Of a stretch of DNA of 30,085 nt, positions 100 to 30,054 are shown piece after piece; within the stretch, counting starts at the first letter, position 1, and every line of letters begins with the position of its first letter. Origin of the DNA: a virus; the IMG/VR virus record IMGVR_UViG_3300009506_000192, positions 1 to 30,085 of that record. One strand, written 5' to 3'. A program made the position numbers and the translations under genes. Under the pieces are notes generated by a model, which worked only from the letters and a program-made list of their open reading frames with translations, was not told the DNA's origin and ran no database searches.

Positions 100-128
100 T
101 TGACAAAGCCGGTTTTATGTGGTAACGT
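100..128 (+). promoter_or_regulatory. sigma70-like promoter for the structural block
   Basis: A perfect TTGACA box (100-105) is followed after 17 bases by TAACGT (123-128). TAACGT is a poor -10 hexamer with three of six consensus bases. It is preceded by TGG at 120-122, which fits an extended -10 element. The site lies about 90 bases upstream of the first + strand gene and is the only good sigma70-type candidate seen in front of the operon. Activity is inferred. Confidence 0.5.
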
Positions 129-216: not shown

Positions 217-930
217 ATGAAAAAGCTTCTTGCAGGTCTGCTGATTTTTGCTGCATCTCTCCTCAACATCGGTCAGGTTACCGGTGAGGAGTCTCTTCCG
301 CTACCTGCTGAGGCTGCTCAGGTTGGTCTACTTCAGGGTGATTATGGTTCCTGTTCTGCGGTGGTAATCTCGTATGACACCATCGTTACCGCCCGTCATT
401 GTGATGAAGTTTCTTTCGTATTTGTGTATAAGAATCACACCTACCGTGTTATCGACACTAACGCGGATCATGTGACCAACACCGATACGATGGTTCTGAA
501 AGTTGATGGTTATCTGGAAGGTCCTTACGCCAAGGTCTATACCGGTGAGGTTAAGGAAGGTACGCCGATCCTGACGATTGGCTATGCCTGGGGCACCGAC
601 AAGATCGCCCGCGAAGGTAAAGCGATTGACTACCGAGTTCTCGAACGTGATGTCTTCGATGTCTTTGATTCCTTCGGGATGGTTCCTGATGGGGTGACTT
701 TCGAAGGGGCATCCCAAGCAGACCAGATCTGCGGTCCTGATCCGTACTGCAAAGGTCCTTCTCTAGTACATAATTCCACCATCATTCCGGGAATGTCCGG
801 GGGTGGTACTTACGCGAAAATTGATGGTGAATGGCGGTTGGTCGCAGTCAACTCATGGCTGCTTCGTGATCCGTTCATGGGTTATCCCATTGAGTACGGT
901 TCCGCACCGATCAATCATATCAAGTTTTGA
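217..930 (+). CDS. Exported trypsin-like serine protease
   Basis: This 237-residue protein has an N-terminal signal peptide: KK at 2-3, then a hydrophobic stretch at about 4-19, with possible cleavage near residues 20-24. A chymotrypsin-fold (S1-type) protease follows. The catalytic triad is readable as His61 in TARHC, Asp90 in NTDTMVLKV and Ser194 in GMSGGG. Cys46 and Cys62 flank the His segment as in the conserved disulfide of the family, and a second Cys pair lies at 172 and 178. The signal peptide predicts action in the periplasm or outside the cell. The start is ATG 217 with AGAAAGG upstream. It is the first gene after the predicted promoter and ends 58 bases before the small terminase gene. 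Known capsid maturation proteases are not exported, so a role in processing the host envelope, a receptor or a competitor is more likely. That role is inference. The protease assignment is strong. Confidence 0.85.
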   Translation: MKKLLAGLLIFAASLLNIGQVTGEESLPLPAEAAQVGLLQGDYGSCSAVVISYDTIVTARHCDEVSFVFVYKNHTYRVIDTNADHVTNTDTMVLKVDGYLEGPYAKVYTGEVKEGTPILTIGYAWGTDKIAREGKAIDYRVLERDVFDVFDSFGMVPDGVTFEGASQADQICGPDPYCKGPSLVHNSTIIPGMSGGGTYAKIDGEWRLVAVNSWLLRDPFMGYPIEYGSAPINHIKF

Positions 931-988: not shown

Positions 989-1534
989 ATGACAAAGCAA
1001 CCTCGCAAGAAGACTAAGCACTGGTCCACCGAGAAGAAGATTCAGGTGGTCATGGCTTATCTCGTTCTGGGCAAGATGCCAATGGTCGAGGCAGCCACCG
1101 GTGTACCGGCAGGAACAATTCATCAATGGAAGCGGCAGGAATGGTGGGACGAGTTAGTTCGCCAAGTCCGCGTTGAAGAAAACATTCAGCTAGACGCTCG
1201 TCTATCTAAAATCCTTTCCAAGACCCTCGACATCGTTGAGGACCGCCTTGACAACGGAGACTGGATGTATGACCCCAAAGAAGGTAACATCACCCGCATC
1301 CCGGTTAAGCTTCGGGACGCCGCAGCAGTGTCCGACACGGCATGGAACCGAAGGGATGCTGTGCGTAACATGTTGGGTGAGAAAGAAGCTAAGCAAACTG
1401 GCGTTAAAGAAGCGCTTCAAGAGATAGCGGCGGGATTCGCCGCACTAGTGCAGGGGAAAGCAAATGACAAAGAAGTTTCTGTTAATGGGAGCGGGGAACT
1501 CCCGAGTTCGGAAGATCAGCACGGGTCCAACTGA
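989..1534 (+). CDS. Putative terminase small subunit
   Basis: This protein has 181 residues from ATG 989. An in-frame TTG at 986 is less likely, because AGGAAAG at 979-985 is correctly spaced for 989. The N-terminus is basic and is followed by a helix-turn-helix-like segment. That segment contains motifs of the kind EKKIQVVMAY, EAATGVPAGTIHQWK and WWDEL, resembling DNA-recognition domains of phage small terminases and transposase-type HTHs. A helical middle region (about 60-150) could serve oligomerisation. Small terminases bind the packaging site and hand DNA to the large subunit. The call rests on the HTH and on the position upstream of a clear large terminase in the same orientation. The last 71 bases overlap the methyltransferase gene. 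An HTH regulator is the main alternative. Confidence 0.65.
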   Translation: MTKQPRKKTKHWSTEKKIQVVMAYLVLGKMPMVEAATGVPAGTIHQWKRQEWWDELVRQVRVEENIQLDARLSKILSKTLDIVEDRLDNGDWMYDPKEGNITRIPVKLRDAAAVSDTAWNRRDAVRNMLGEKEAKQTGVKEALQEIAAGFAALVQGKANDKEVSVNGSGELPSSEDQHGSN

Positions 1535-2030
1535 TTTCTCGGATGGTGAACTTGTAACACTGGACATTGACGACGCTTGTGGTGCGGATTATATCTGGGA
1601 TCTGAATATTCGACCCCTTCCGTTCGCAGATGACACGTTCGATGAAATCCATGCTTACGAAGTCCTTGAACATATCGGAGTTCAGGGCGACTGGAGGACA
1701 TTTTTCAAAGAGTGGCAGGAATACTGGCGACTCCTCAAACCGGGTGGTTTGTTCGTCGGCACAGTGCCCTCATACAAAAGCATGTGGGCGCTCGGTGATC
1801 CCGGACATACACGGGTCCTACCCCACGGCTTGTTCGTCTTTCTGGACCAGAGGGAGTACGAGAAACAAATAGGCAAGACGGCGATGACGGACTATCGGAG
1901 TGTATTTCCGGCTCCGTATTCTTTCGAAGCTGAGTTTGTTCAGTACGACGATAACAACATGTTTTTTGTACTGAGGAAGATCGTCTATGCCAAAGAAACG
2001 GAGACCGGGGAAGCGACTGTTCAGGTTTAA
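1464..2030 (+). CDS. SAM-dependent class I methyltransferase
   Basis: This 188-residue protein matches the Rossmann-fold SAM methyltransferase pattern (Methyltransf_11 type). Motif I appears as GAGNSR (9-14), the acidic residue after strand 2 as LDID (33-36), and a DDTFDEIHAYEVLEHI-like segment spans 56-71. The post-motif LLKPGGLF is at 90-97. The substrate cannot be read. No DNA target-recognition domain or catalytic NPPY/DPPY motif is seen, so a small molecule, protein or sugar substrate is more likely than DNA. The start at ATG 1464 has AGGGGAAAG just upstream. It overlaps the preceding gene by 71 bases and the next gene by 44 bases, and lies inside the terminase locus. Confidence 0.8.
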   Translation: MTKKFLLMGAGNSRVRKISTGPTDFSDGELVTLDIDDACGADYIWDLNIRPLPFADDTFDEIHAYEVLEHIGVQGDWRTFFKEWQEYWRLLKPGGLFVGTVPSYKSMWALGDPGHTRVLPHGLFVFLDQREYEKQIGKTAMTDYRSVFPAPYSFEAEFVQYDDNNMFFVLRKIVYAKETETGEATVQV

Positions 2031-2615: not shown

Positions 2616-4145
2616 ATGCTCACCCCTCAAGTCATCGAGGGGTTTGTCAACGCAGTGTTGGCAGACAGCTTTCAGGAACGAGCCTCTACTCCTGAAGCTC
2701 ACCGTGAATGGTGGGAACTTTGTTGTGATCCGCACCCTAGAGTCGCAATTGCCGCGCCCCGTGGACATGCGAAATCAACCGCGATTACTCATGCCTACGT
2801 TCTTGCTGCAACGTTATTTAGAGAGCATCAGTACGTCCTCATCGTCTCGGACACGGAAGCGCAAGCGGTCCTCTTCCTCCAGGATATCAAAAAAGAAATC
2901 CTAGACAACGAGAAGATCCACAGATTGTTTCCCATGAAGACCGATAAGGTTGGATTGGTTAGGTTGGTCAAAGAGACTGAAGCAGACATCATCGTAGAGA
3001 TGGCGGATGGTTACCAATTCCGCATCATGGCGAAAGGCTCAGAGCAGAAGGTCAGGGGTTTGAAGTGGGGTTCGAAGCGTCCCGATCTAATCATCGGAGA
3101 TGACTTGGAGAACGATGAGATCGTCATGAATAAAGACCGTAGGGATAAATTCCTTCGGTGGTTCTATGGAGCATTGTTACCATGTCTGAGCAAGTCCGGA
3201 AAGATCCGAATTGTGGGTACCATATTGCATATGGACTCACTCCTGAATCGCTTAATGCCGAGGCAACAACTTATTGGAAGAGCAAAGTTCAACGATTTGT
3301 CCGTAACAGCCTTGCGGGAATGGACAGACCGGAGGATGCCGTGGAAGTCGGTACTCTATCGAGCACACGGAAAGGACTACGAACCGATACTTTGGCAGGA
3401 ACGGTTCAGTCGTCAGTTTTTCGTAGACAAGTATAACGACCTTAAGAGGCAAGGTATCCCTGAAACTTATGCTCAGGAATATCTCAACGAACCTCTTGAC
3501 GAGTCAACAGCATATTTTCGGCGTTCTGACTTCATCGGAATGTCCGAAAGAGATAAAAATCTTCGCAAGACGTACTACATCGTTGCGGATTTAGCTATCT
3601 CTGAGAAGGAAAGAGCGGATTACAGCGTCTTTATGGTCGCTGGAATGGATGAAGACCGGTTTCTACACATCGAAAAGGTGCTTCGTGCTCGCTTGGATGG
3701 TCGAGAAATCGTAGATTTGCTCTACGAACTCAACAGAACGTGGAAACCAGAGGGTTTTGGCATCGAAACGGAGAAGATTGACAAGGCGATTAAGCCATTT
3801 CTCTTCGAAAAGATGCGTGCACAAGGGGAATTCTTCGATTTGATCCCTTTGAAACCTTCTAAGGACAAAGAAACACGCGGTAGAAGCATTCAAGCACGTA
3901 TGAGGTCGGGTTCAGTCAAGTTTGACAAGGTAAGTGACTGGTATCCTGAACTCGAAGAAGAGTGTTTGCGCTTCCCAAGAGGAAAACACGATGACCAAGT
4001 GGACTGTTTAGCCTACATTGGTCTGTTGTTGGACAAATTGAACGAAGCGCCGACGAATCGTGAGCTAATCGAGGAAGATCGCGCAGAAATGTGGCGTCAT
4101 TCAGGTCTCGAAGAGCAGGGTCGTAATCAAACTACAGGATATTGA
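2616..4145 (+). CDS. terL: Terminase large subunit
   Basis: This 509-residue protein has both enzyme parts of a packaging motor. The ATPase has a Walker A-like APRGHAKST at 47-55, a Walker B at 157-163 (DLIIGDD), and a coupling segment near 200 (IVGTILH). The RNase H-fold nuclease has Asp325 (VADLA), Glu384 (GIETE) and Asp463 in GKHDDQVD. It cuts concatemeric DNA and pumps it through the portal. The length and motif spacing are normal for the family. The start at ATG 2616 follows the HNH stop by one base. The gene ends one base before the ATG of the next small gene. Confidence 0.95.
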   Translation: MLTPQVIEGFVNAVLADSFQERASTPEAHREWWELCCDPHPRVAIAAPRGHAKSTAITHAYVLAATLFREHQYVLIVSDTEAQAVLFLQDIKKEILDNEKIHRLFPMKTDKVGLVRLVKETEADIIVEMADGYQFRIMAKGSEQKVRGLKWGSKRPDLIIGDDLENDEIVMNKDRRDKFLRWFYGALLPCLSKSGKIRIVGTILHMDSLLNRLMPRQQLIGRAKFNDLSVTALREWTDRRMPWKSVLYRAHGKDYEPILWQERFSRQFFVDKYNDLKRQGIPETYAQEYLNEPLDESTAYFRRSDFIGMSERDKNLRKTYYIVADLAISEKERADYSVFMVAGMDEDRFLHIEKVLRARLDGREIVDLLYELNRTWKPEGFGIETEKIDKAIKPFLFEKMRAQGEFFDLIPLKPSKDKETRGRSIQARMRSGSVKFDKVSDWYPELEEECLRFPRGKHDDQVDCLAYIGLLLDKLNEAPTNRELIEEDRAEMWRHSGLEEQGRNQTTGY

Positions 4146-6685: not shown

Positions 6686-6873
6686 CCTGAAACAACGCAT
6701 AGAAGAAGGTCGTGACCAACTCGAAAGGTTGGCAGAGAATGCCAGAGAATGCAGAACAAAGGGACGACTACATTAGGGGTGCACTATATGCCTTCCGTAT
6801 AGTCCTAGACTTTGAACCAGAGTTCGATGAAGGAGAGCAGGATGAAACCAGTAGGGTATCGGGTTTGGATTAA
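6612..6873 (+). pseudogene. Small phage gene split by a frameshift
   Basis: Two short frames read as one protein if the 10-bp direct repeat at 6733-6752 is counted once. The first part runs from ATG 6612 (SD AGAGGAA just upstream) to TAG 6774-6776 and carries SKREFREWLENPV and a helical RIEEGRDQLERLAENA segment. The second part can start at ATG 6739 and runs to TAA 6871-6873 with RDDYIRGALYAFRIVLDFEP. The joined product would be 83 residues. The pattern of a REFREWLE start followed by a helix and a terminal G-A-L-x-A-x-R-x-V-L segment is familiar from small proteins downstream of portal genes, with unknown function. The gene overlaps the portal end and the next gene. It may be broken, or made as two peptides. 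Confidence 0.65.
6733..6752 (+). repeat. 10-bp perfect tandem duplication
   Basis: CAGAGAATGC at 6733-6742 is repeated exactly at 6743-6752. Ten extra bases shift the frame by +1 and end the small gene early. Removing one copy restores one uninterrupted frame from 6612 to 6873. Confidence 0.9.
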
Positions 6874-7216
6874 ACCTGAATATGAGAATGAACATTCGGT
6901 TGAAGGTACTGATATCAAGTTGATCCTAGCTGAATCTGATCGCACCGGTATAGCAGCGGTCACAGTTGGTTGGGTTATTGGGGTTGGACCTACGGCTTTT
7001 ATGTTCGACAGGGAAGCAGCACGAACCGGGCAACGGTCTCCGTTGAACGAACCGTGGTGTAAAGTGGGTGACAAGGTGTTGTACTCCAAGTATGGTGGAC
7101 GCGTCATTGTTGACCCGAAGACAGATGAGAAGACTATAGTCATCAACGATCAAGAGATCATCATGGTCCTCGATGACGAAGAGACATTAGAGGAGTCCAA
7201 AGATGGAAACGTCTAA
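6842..7216 (+). CDS. GroES-like co-chaperonin
   Basis: This protein has 124 residues from ATG 6842, chosen because AAGGAG (6829-6834) lies at the right distance. An upstream TTG at 6812 would add 10 residues without such a site. The body follows the GroES beta-barrel pattern. An N-terminal YRVWIKPE strand is followed by GWVIGVGP (43-50). A longer mobile-loop-like insert spans 51-71. Then KVGDKVLYSKYGG (74-86) and a final INDQEIIMVLDDE (101-113) correspond to the GroES edge strands. Phage co-chaperonins such as T4 gp31 work with host GroEL in folding the capsid protein. This gene lies between portal and scaffold, which fits that role. It overlaps the next gene by 14 bases. Confidence 0.65.
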   Translation: MKPVGYRVWIKPEYENEHSVEGTDIKLILAESDRTGIAAVTVGWVIGVGPTAFMFDREAARTGQRSPLNEPWCKVGDKVLYSKYGGRVIVDPKTDEKTIVINDQEIIMVLDDEETLEESKDGNV

Positions 7217-11757: not shown

Positions 11758-12006
11758 ATGATGGAGTGGCAACAAATAGCATTATGGGCGCTGGCGGCGC
11801 TTGCCACCGTTCAAGGAGTGATTATGAAGATGCTTTGGACTAAGACCGAGAATACATCACAAGCATTGGCTAAACACGCTCAACATGACGCGGAGACCTT
11901 TGTAACGAAGGTTGACCACGAACGGTTCGTTGGGCGTGTAGAATCCAAGTTGGACAAGATTCTCGACAAATTAGACCGCAAAGCTGATAAACCCAATGCT
12001 TCTTAA
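11758..12006 (+). CDS. Small one-helix membrane protein
   Basis: This protein has 82 residues, or 81 if ATG 11761 is used. The second ATG is better spaced from GAGG at 11751-11754. One hydrophobic segment at about 5-24 (IALWALAALATVQGVIM) is followed by a charged helix with heptad character (FVGRVESKLDKILDKLDRK). This layout is seen in small phage membrane proteins, including some holin or XhlA-like accessory proteins. It could also anchor a structural complex. A separate holin candidate lies at 29032-29445, so the role here is open. Confidence 0.65.
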   Translation: MMEWQQIALWALAALATVQGVIMKMLWTKTENTSQALAKHAQHDAETFVTKVDHERFVGRVESKLDKILDKLDRKADKPNAS

Positions 12007-12214
12007 AGGCAAACAGGATTATCATAAACCCGGTGACTACAACGCTTACTGCGATGTTTGTGGCTTCAAGTTCAAAGCCTCGGAACTCCAGAAGCGGTGG
12101 GATGGTTATAGGGTTTGTCAAAAGGATTGGGAACCACGCCATATCCTAGACTTCATTCGTGGACCGGAACAATATCCTCAACCGGAAGACATTAACTCTA
12201 AAGACGGATCATGA
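11996..12214 (+). CDS. Zinc-ribbon protein A
   Basis: This 72-residue protein has Cys19 and Cys22 (YCDVCG) and, after 18 residues, Cys41 and His49 (VCQKDWEPRH), the pattern of a Cys3-His zinc site. A conserved FKASELQKRWDGYRVC core lies between them. The following gene encodes a clear paralogue. The function is unknown. Small zinc ribbons often mediate nucleic-acid or protein binding. It overlaps the upstream gene by 11 bases and the downstream one by 4 bases (ATGA). Confidence 0.75.
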   Translation: MLLKGKQDYHKPGDYNAYCDVCGFKFKASELQKRWDGYRVCQKDWEPRHILDFIRGPEQYPQPEDINSKDGS

Positions 12215-12486
12215 CCAAATACTATTCTGGAGACCACAACGCATATTGTCAAGTCTGTGGATTCCGGTATAGGGCATCGGAACTACGCAGACGATGGGAT
12301 GGCCTACTGGTCTGTAACGACGATTTCGAATCGAAACATGATGCGGATATGCGTGATCCGCATAGAATTCCAAAAGAGAGTCTACCATCCTGGGTTCGGA
12401 ACTCTGAACCTATTGGTACACAGTTCCTTGGGTTGGGACCTCTCCAGGCTGACATTGGTCGGGCTGGATATAACTGGGCGGGATAA
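12211..12486 (+). CDS. Zinc-ribbon protein B (paralogue of A)
   Basis: This 91-residue protein has the same zinc pattern as its neighbour: Cys13, Cys16, Cys35 and His43, with core FRYRASELRRRWDGLLVC. Matching residues between the two include NAYC-x-VCGF, the ASEL helix, RWDG and VC. The C-terminal 40 residues are unrelated to A and end with a Gly-rich GTQFLGLGPLQADIG segment that is likely to be a binding tail. The pair looks like an old tandem duplication. The stop overlaps the start of the large fibre gene as TAATG. Confidence 0.75.
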   Translation: MTKYYSGDHNAYCQVCGFRYRASELRRRWDGLLVCNDDFESKHDADMRDPHRIPKESLPSWVRNSEPIGTQFLGLGPLQADIGRAGYNWAG

Positions 12487-28922: not shown

Positions 28923-29039
28923 TCACTCTTCTCCGTCTCTGTTTTTATAGACTTGGTATTCGACATATGCCACCAGAACCATTCCTACTACTAGTGCGCC
29001 CAAGACATAAGCACAGTCCAACCAAAACCAATTAGGCAT
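28923..29039 (-). CDS. 38-residue one-helix membrane protein
   Basis: On the - strand, ATG 29039-29037 to TGA 28925-28923 encodes 38 residues. A short aromatic start (MPNWFWLDC) is followed by one hydrophobic segment at about 9-26 (YVLGALVVGMVLVAYV) and a charged tail ending RDGEE. The start lies inside the last codons of the holin-like gene and overlaps it by 8 bases (ATGCCTAA). This is typical of coupled lysis genes. It could be a second holin, an antiholin or another small lysis accessory. It ends just before the terminator stem. Confidence 0.55.
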   Translation of the reverse strand: MPNWFWLDCAYVLGALVVGMVLVAYVEYQVYKNRDGEE

Positions 29040-29445
29040 CTTCTTTATCGGCTCCATTCTTGTGCATCATATACTCTGCATACTTCTTGATGCCGAAGGT
29101 TGCAGCAATCATGAGACCCACCGCAGCTTGATACCAACCCGGAGTAGTCTGCAGAATGGCAAACCCTTCCGTGATGTACTTGCTGAAGCCAGGAATGAAA
29201 CAACCGACTAGCGGGACAGAGAGGACGATGGTAAGCCATTCATCCTTCCACCCGTTGTTACGGATAGCTTCTACTTCCCATTGACTGTCGAGTTCACCTT
29301 TCTTGATGGTGGCGTCGATAGTCGCCTTCTTGATTTCAATCTCTCCCTGCCGTTCGATCTTAGTGATCTCCATCTTGTGCGCGAAGTAATCCGTTACCGG
29401 TTTAGCTACCAGCCCAAGAACATTCAGAATCGCAGTGAACCACAT
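29032..29445 (-). CDS. Holin-like membrane protein
   Basis: This 137-residue protein has three hydrophobic parts: about 3-16 (weakly, FTAILNVLGLVAKP), 70-87 (WLTIVLSVPLVGCFIPGF) and 103-121 (GWYQAAVGLMIAATFGIKK). A charged helix at about 22-65 (MEITKIERQGEIEIKKA) lies between the first two. The layout and the Trp-rich NNGWKDEW entry to the second segment resemble three-segment holins of podoviruses and gene-transfer agents. Holins make the membrane hole that ends infection. Its ATG overlaps the upstream stop as TAATG, and the small membrane gene overlaps its end. No endolysin gene is in the window to confirm a lysis cassette. Confidence 0.6.
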   Translation of the reverse strand: MWFTAILNVLGLVAKPVTDYFAHKMEITKIERQGEIEIKKATIDATIKKGELDSQWEVEAIRNNGWKDEWLTIVLSVPLVGCFIPGFSKYITEGFAILQTTPGWYQAAVGLMIAATFGIKKYAEYMMHKNGADKEDA

Positions 29446-29687
29446 TAGTATACGTCCCCATTCTCTTCTATTTTCGTGTCTTCATAAGGCGCTGCAAGAC
29501 GACGGTAGAACTCCAGTTTGCAACACTCCAATGCGCCAACAATGTCGTTGAGTTTCTGGTACCGAGTTCCGTTCTTTTCCAGGTACATGAGAGCGACTTT
29601 CGTGAAGATATAGTTAAGGTCGCCTGGGGTTTCAAGGGCACCTTCTTCCTCTACTTCAACGATTCGCTTTGTATCGAGATATGGCAT
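29445..29687 (-). CDS. DUF6899-like phage protein
   Basis: This protein has 80 residues from ATG 29687, with GGAGG 7 bases upstream. The in-frame TTG at 29690 is less likely. The sequence has a TPGDLNYIFTKVALMYL helix, then YQKLNDIVGALECCKLEFYRR and a terminal APYEDTKIEENGDVY. This order matches a widespread small phage family that I recall as DUF6899. The family number is from memory. The function is unknown. It overlaps the DUF4406-like gene upstream by 32 bases and shares a TAATG junction with the holin-like gene. Confidence 0.8.
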   Translation of the reverse strand: MPYLDTKRIVEVEEEGALETPGDLNYIFTKVALMYLEKNGTRYQKLNDIVGALECCKLEFYRRLAAPYEDTKIEENGDVY

Positions 29688-30054
29688 CAATAGCCTCCGT
29701 TACAGTGTAAGTAGGAAGACGAACCCAAGTGGCGACAGCTACTTCTGCTTTCGCCCCAATCGACTCTTCCCAATCAGGAAGAACAATAATAGCATCGCCA
29801 TCTTCTGCCTTCAGTCTATGAATGATTGTGTTTACGTCCCTATGGGCATACACTCGTGCGACTAATGGAGTACCAGCATGACGGTGTTGGTCATCCAATG
29901 ACATGGATAGATCTGTACCTTCAGCTTCCAAATCCATTTCGGCCGGATTGAAGATCTCCCAACCCACTGCCCTGAGAGCCTTAGCGGCTCCCATGAACAA
30001 CGGATAATTGAACTGCGGTTTACTACGCATCGGTCCAGCTAAGTATGCTTTCAT
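29656..30054 (-). CDS. DUF4406 / nucleoside 2-deoxyribosyltransferase-like protein
   Basis: This 132-residue protein begins MKAYLAGPMRSKPQFNYP and has a GWEIFNPAEMD segment, RDVNTIIH and a DAIIVLPDWEESIGAKAEV stretch. These match the DUF4406 family, a Rossmann-like fold related to nucleoside 2-deoxyribosyltransferases. In that superfamily the Tyr near the start, the Asp of RD and the Glu of AKAE are catalytic or substrate-binding positions. Phage members may act in nucleotide or base salvage. The real substrate is not known. The start overlaps the stop of the upstream gene (ATGA). Confidence 0.75.
   Translation of the reverse strand: MKAYLAGPMRSKPQFNYPLFMGAAKALRAVGWEIFNPAEMDLEAEGTDLSMSLDDQHRHAGTPLVARVYAHRDVNTIIHRLKAEDGDAIIVLPDWEESIGAKAEVAVATWVRLPTYTVTEAIDAISRYKANR

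Follow-up and report, generated by a model that had tools for sequence, protein, structure and literature searches.

A predicted exported chymotrypsin-fold protease upstream of the small terminase gene of a phage structural operon

What is a gene for an exported protease doing just ahead of the terminase genes of a phage? The window analysed here, a linear IMG/VR record of 30,085 bases that is incomplete at both ends, carries such an open reading frame at positions 217–930 of the plus strand. An earlier note had read it as an exported trypsin-like protease encoded by the first gene of a structural operon. We ask what kind of protein the gene encodes, whether it is the phage's own, and what its position suggests about its role.

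Fold, active site and relatives of the protease

The open reading frame starts with ATG, has AAAGGG upstream and encodes 237 residues. Its N-terminus reads MKKLLAGLLIFAASLLNIGQVTGEESLP, from which we infer a Sec-type signal peptide (approximately residues 1–23) with an MKK n-region, a LLAGLLIFAASLL core and a possible cleavage site between VTG and EE, in agreement with the earlier note.

The motifs TARHC (His61 and Cys62), NTDTMVL (Asp90) and PGMSGGG (Ser194) provide a candidate catalytic triad. In an alignment of the window protein with 30 other exported phage proteases (31 sequences), the His–Asp–Ser order and GxSGG are present, His61 and Ser194 are invariant, and Asp90 is retained in at least 90% of the sequences. 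The complete triad proposed earlier is therefore correctly numbered, its residues aligning with the catalytic ones of the 30 proteases. Cys46 and Cys62 were also found where they had been placed, and we take this pair to be the equivalent of Cys42–Cys58 of chymotrypsin; Cys172 and Cys178 may form a second disulfide bridge. In the Pfam scan, the protein scored 27.6 bits against a cut-off of 27.6 for Trypsin_2 and 20.8 against 20.6 for Trypsin, and it matched PHROG 9683, annotated as "protease", at 6e-14 over residues 10–136 only.

AlphaFold2 gave no usable protease model from the single sequence (pLDDT 35). With the alignment of the 30 other exported phage proteases, the mean pLDDT was 75.5 and the pTM 0.72, with a helix at residues 2–22; the model is poor at loop 130–180 and at the C-terminus. 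The top Foldseek matches of this model in the PDB are bovine chymotrypsin and tryptase (E = 3.6e-8, probability 1.00, TM about 0.5), and in a viral structure library it matches, among others, the protease of Rhizobium phage AF3 and a "periplasmic serine protease" of a podovirus. As the input alignment consisted of trypsin-like proteins, the fold call is not independent, while the Pfam and PHROG matches do not depend on that alignment. The earlier note had named a model lacking the chymotrypsin fold as evidence against its reading; the fold was recovered.

According to the model, the window protein has a chymotrypsin fold (PA clan, S1); its residues show that it is not a true trypsin. In trypsin, Asp189 gives Lys/Arg specificity and Asp194 serves zymogen activation. 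In the window protein, Thr188, six residues before Ser194, occupies the position of Asp189, and Met193, immediately before Ser194, that of Asp194, so that neither Lys/Arg specificity nor zymogen activation of the Ile16 type is to be expected. Thus, the description "trypsin-like" holds for the fold and fails for the specificity residues. The spacing of 29 between His and Asp is also unlike that of S1A enzymes and is as in bacterial Trypsin_2 proteins. Taken together, the sequence features suggest that the protein is probably a protein-cutting enzyme exported from the cell interior. The signal sequence and the chymotrypsin fold set it apart from phage head-maturation proteases, which are cytoplasmic and non-S1, as the earlier note had argued.

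The claim that such a protease is unusual in a phage did not survive comparison. The Rhizobium phage protein P10VF_080 is a full-length member of phrog_9683 (2e-75), and a tblastn search with it matched 43 INPHARED records, most of them from phages of Rhizobium, Sinorhizobium and Brevundimonas; a few (Salmonella, Acinetobacter) resemble bacterial DegP/DegQ sequence entered under a phage name. In IMG/VR, an alignment scan for exported phage proteases found 45 loci, nearly all of whose proteins open with a hydrophobic stretch of the export type, in several cases with a lipobox. The family is found mostly in Rhizobiales phages, and an exported trypsin-like protease has been named in phages P10VF and phiM9 by a meta-analysis (PMC10783043).

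The members of phrog_9683 (among them P10VF_080, Sinorhizobium phage phiM9_102, phage 16-3 p036 and RHph_X2_25) are likewise single-domain and exported and have the same triad. They are only about 20–25% identical to the window protease, lack its Cys46-type cysteine, and occupy genomic locations other than the one upstream of terS; most carry GSGVHIG and a C-terminal VPxxxVC, both absent from the window protein. None of the phage trypsins examined elsewhere sat at the head of a structural operon. The terminase of the present clade is absent from all 45 IMG/VR protease loci. Genes found near these proteases include those of a DNA repair exonuclease family (9 of the 58 neighbours scanned), of endolysins and of Rz-like spanins. 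What is new is thus the position of the exported protease, not its presence in a phage.

The homologue search in phages yielded a distant family and no close relative. With the window protease as query, tblastn found nothing in INPHARED at 0.01 (three weak chance matches at 10) and nothing in plasmids, and neither IMG/VR nor GTDB genomes gave a confirmed match in pattern scans; therefore, a bacterial source could not be named. By these sequence comparisons, the window protein is a divergent form among phage trypsins.

Promoter and gene context

Two terminase-alignment scans of IMG/VR, each providing the best 80 loci of 580–599 related stretches, gave 127 distinct terS loci, 92 of them with at least 420 bp of upstream sequence; the frequencies below refer to this sample.

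The order of the terS, HNH-like, terL, portal, GroES-like, scaffold-region and major capsid genes in the window is that of its relatives, which include MW202796 (43.8 kb, circular) and Alcaligenes phage vB_Af_QDWS535 (50.1 kb, circular). The gene of the small terminase subunit, terS (989–1534, +), and the conserved HNH-like gene between terS and terL (2357–2614, +; Pfam HNH 0.0075) each have homologues in 16 of the 23 first relatives, and the large subunit gene terL (2616–4145, +; phrog_38, 1.2e-85) was used to define the clade. The position "directly upstream of the terminase genes" proposed earlier is correct for terS and not for terL, since three more genes lie between the two.

Upstream of the protease, we predict a rightward promoter of the structural operon at positions 100–128 (+), TTGACAAAGCCGGTTTTATGTGGTAACGT, of the form TTGACA-17-TAnnnT with an extended −10 TGn. 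Of the 92 loci, 35 have a match to TTGACA-N13..15-TGnTAnnnT in the 300 bp that precede the first structural-operon gene, where 0.015 would be expected; these promoter calls are pattern-based. Typical forms in the clade are TTGACAAAT...TGTGGTATAAT. Loci of the clade share a near-consensus sigma-70 extended −10 promoter (TTGACAAA...TGTGGTATAAT) ahead of the structural operon, for example L004 at 1710, L006 at 1007 and L031 at 5355. The −10 hexamer of the window (TAACGT) is weaker than the clade TATAAT, and because of it a generic sigma-70 scan found nothing; the site emerged by comparison with relatives. Two further elements accompany it. A divergent, leftward promoter-like site, TTGACAAAGATAAGAAAGTATGATACCCT (18–46, −), forms a 9-bp exact inverted repeat with positions 100–108; a minus-strand partner is matched in most relatives having the rightward site, and in the window, which starts at base 1, it points off the contig end. 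A palindrome, CTCGGTcaACCGAG (80–93), lies just 5' of the −35 element and is a putative operator.

With the predicted promoter at 100–128, the protease gene becomes the one nearest the promoter in an operon of the phage itself, lying between a clade-conserved promoter and terS, which bears out its earlier description as heading the structural operon. The protease gene and the late genes are close in GC content (49.7% and 50.6%, respectively), and in codon usage it stands at a distance of 0.181 from them, within the 0.086–0.254 spanned by individual late genes; a recent acquisition from a bacterium is disfavoured by this match. The conserved promoter, the codon usage and a second phage with the same arrangement, described below, indicate that the gene is owned by the phage and does not lie in flanking bacterial DNA. 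The second condition that the earlier note had named against its reading, a gene located outside the phage, thus did not arise either.

Several other features of the window were recorded. The accessory gene at 1464–2030 (+), for a SAM-dependent methyltransferase (Pfam Methyltransf_11, 1.1e-6), overlaps the end of terS; its sole full-length homologue in the first 80-locus scan is 2905–3384 of L091, the second locus with a slot protease (49% identity), with a weak partial match in L013. Positions 1987–2373 encode a small HExxH protein (LLHEIQHIIEDHY) with weak likeness to IrrE/M78 metallopeptidases and phrog_1233 and with no counterpart in the relatives searched. A clade-conserved GroES-like co-chaperonin gene (6812–7216, phrog_3188) occupies the portal–capsid interval, and two adjoining small genes at 11996–12486, apparently a tandem duplication, match the same relatives (the MW202796 product is annotated "ubiquitin"). 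A DUF4406/MazG-like protein is encoded at the right end on the opposite strand (29656–30054, −). A candidate hairpin in the protease–terS interval (939–975) was dropped as an attenuator, being no better than shuffles (z 0.33), and the window gave no Rfam and no tRNA match.

Exported proteins upstream of terS in related phages

We searched the 92 loci for open reading frames that have a signal peptide or lipobox and a ribosome-binding site and end just upstream of terS. By this simple rule, an exported-type reading frame was found upstream of terS in 19 of 92 loci, compared with 15 of 923 downstream control windows (Fisher 1.6e-12); chance reading frames may account for one or two of these calls (L048, L151). 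A second implementation gave 14 of 79 in the sense direction, 0 of 79 antisense and 6 of 638 downstream.

Three small-protein families, mutually unrelated, are backed by homology among independent loci. Family A (about 70 residues, WxDGT...WxC...C) occurs at six loci (L004 1774–1977, L005, L049, L080, L087 and L159); its members from L004 and L005 had no Pfam family above the cut-off and no PHROG match. Family B (about 100 residues, two conserved cysteines) occurs at seven loci, with three lipoprotein-like versions, and family C (about 110 residues), related to phrog_2315, at three. PDB profile searches with families A and B gave nothing usable, nor did tblastn detect any INPHARED phage when family A and family C members were the queries. 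Chymotrypsin-fold proteases are the fourth kind, at two of the 92 loci, namely the window and L091. A "triad" motif match in L177 proved to be a portal protein and was rejected, and the whole records of the 23 first relatives contain no Trypsin_2 or phrog_9683 match.

The spacing between promoter and terS gives a similar picture. In 36 loci, terS begins within 120 bp of the promoter with no exported reading frame between them. The gap exceeds 120 bp in 19 loci; 13 of these have slot genes called exported, and among the other six, L134 carries an evident signal peptide that escaped the rule, L033 an HNH-like reading frame, and four no convincing gene. In this clade, the slot between promoter and terS thus appears to hold either nothing or, nearly always, one exported protein.

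The L091 protease (576–1220) has the full triad and a signal sequence, and it is like that of the window in being exported, in the Cys pair around the His motif, in GEWRLV after the Ser motif, in the absence of GSGVHIG and VPxxxVC, and in standing directly upstream of terS, which it overlaps by 8 bp, in a phage of the same clade. The two differ in that identity is only 22% (45/202), the Ser motif is PGNSGGP in L091 and PGMSGGG in the window, and L091 lacks the long insert before this motif. With two loci only and 22% identity, the common ancestry of the slot proteases is uncertain. L091 and L115 are related in TerL (71% identity), terS (60%) and the major capsid protein (60%), and their slot genes are unrelated, a protease in L091 and a family B protein in L115. 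The occurrence of unrelated exported proteins at one place suggests that the position is reserved for envelope-altering proteins.

Possible role of the protease

Our preferred reading, to which we assign a probability of roughly 40%, is that the window encodes a Sec-exported S1-fold endopeptidase in an optional promoter-proximal slot, which cleaves envelope proteins in the periplasm and possibly excludes other phages. Rightward transcription would start at the predicted promoter, with the protease as its first product, and the signal peptide would direct it to the periplasm of a Gram-negative host, which is likely since one relative infects Alcaligenes. There, the disulfides Cys46–Cys62 and perhaps Cys172–Cys178 would form, and the enzyme, active without zymogen cleavage, would cut one or a few envelope proteins. 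The likeliest benefit would be the exclusion of further phages from the committed cell, or some other remodelling of its envelope. The interchangeable effectors in the slots of relatives would serve the same purpose; that the slot receives secreted or lipoprotein effectors, a protease among them, whose common target is the host envelope, as in superinfection exclusion, is a view that we hold just as tentatively. Superinfection exclusion is possibly the common task, as argued from the timing, location and exchange of the slot genes. The exported superinfection-exclusion proteins T5 Llp and phi80 Cor are small and envelope-directed, and three slot genes here are lipoprotein-like, a likeness by kind. 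We know of no protease among such proteins.

Changed receptors, cleared competitors, help with lysis and a benefit to the lysogen are candidate roles named in the earlier note. Other explanations than our preferred one are less probable and are considered in descending order. An HtrA/DegP-like helper could clear misfolded periplasmic proteins or damp envelope stress during phage production. HtrA/DegP enzymes (S1C) have a periplasmic chymotrypsin fold, a profile of phage trypsins finds its best PDB matches in DegP, DegQ and HtrA, and related phage genes are annotated as HtrA- or DegP-like. However, the window protease ends about 40 residues after Ser194 without the C-terminal PDZ domain (no PDZ match in Pfam), it and the L091 enzyme have a chymotrypsin-type Cys pair in place of the HtrA-like GSGVHIG, and the other slot families consist of small proteins that give no hint of a chaperone role, which makes such quality control unlikely.

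Counter-defence or attack on rivals, with the enzyme acting outside the cell or in the periplasm on defence proteins, bacteriocins or free phages, would suit an exchangeable accessory slot, as in arms races; with no known envelope defence target identified and no second secretion system for crossing the outer membrane, we regard it as quite unlikely.

A little lower still we place an aid to lysis, in which cutting of outer-membrane or peptidoglycan-linked proteins would ease particle release. In other phages, several trypsin genes are found no more than about 3 kb from those of endolysins or spanins. In the window, however, the holin-like membrane protein gene (29032–29445, −; phrog_2524) is at the opposite contig end; its reading as a holin rests on hydrophobic segments and a relative's annotated 3TM holin, phrog_2524 having no assigned function. 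Moreover, most relatives have an empty or otherwise filled slot and yet must lyse without the protease, and for both reasons a primary role in lysis is less likely.

That the gene is a neutral passenger (moron) of bacterial origin that contributes little to infection would fit its presence in two of 92 loci and its divergence from all other phage trypsins, but the intact triad, the phage-like codon usage, the location downstream of the operon promoter and the enrichment of exported proteins in the slot far above control make this the least probable explanation.

Many phage genomes have an exported trypsin-like protease annotated, and we found no reported function for these proteins. If the task of the slot is superinfection exclusion by proteolysis, the window protease would represent a mechanism that is not known to have been described. 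As unrelated exported proteins occupy a fixed position, their genes lend themselves to comparison as alternative solutions to a single task, and examining this slot in the approximately 600 related contigs should yield further effector families.
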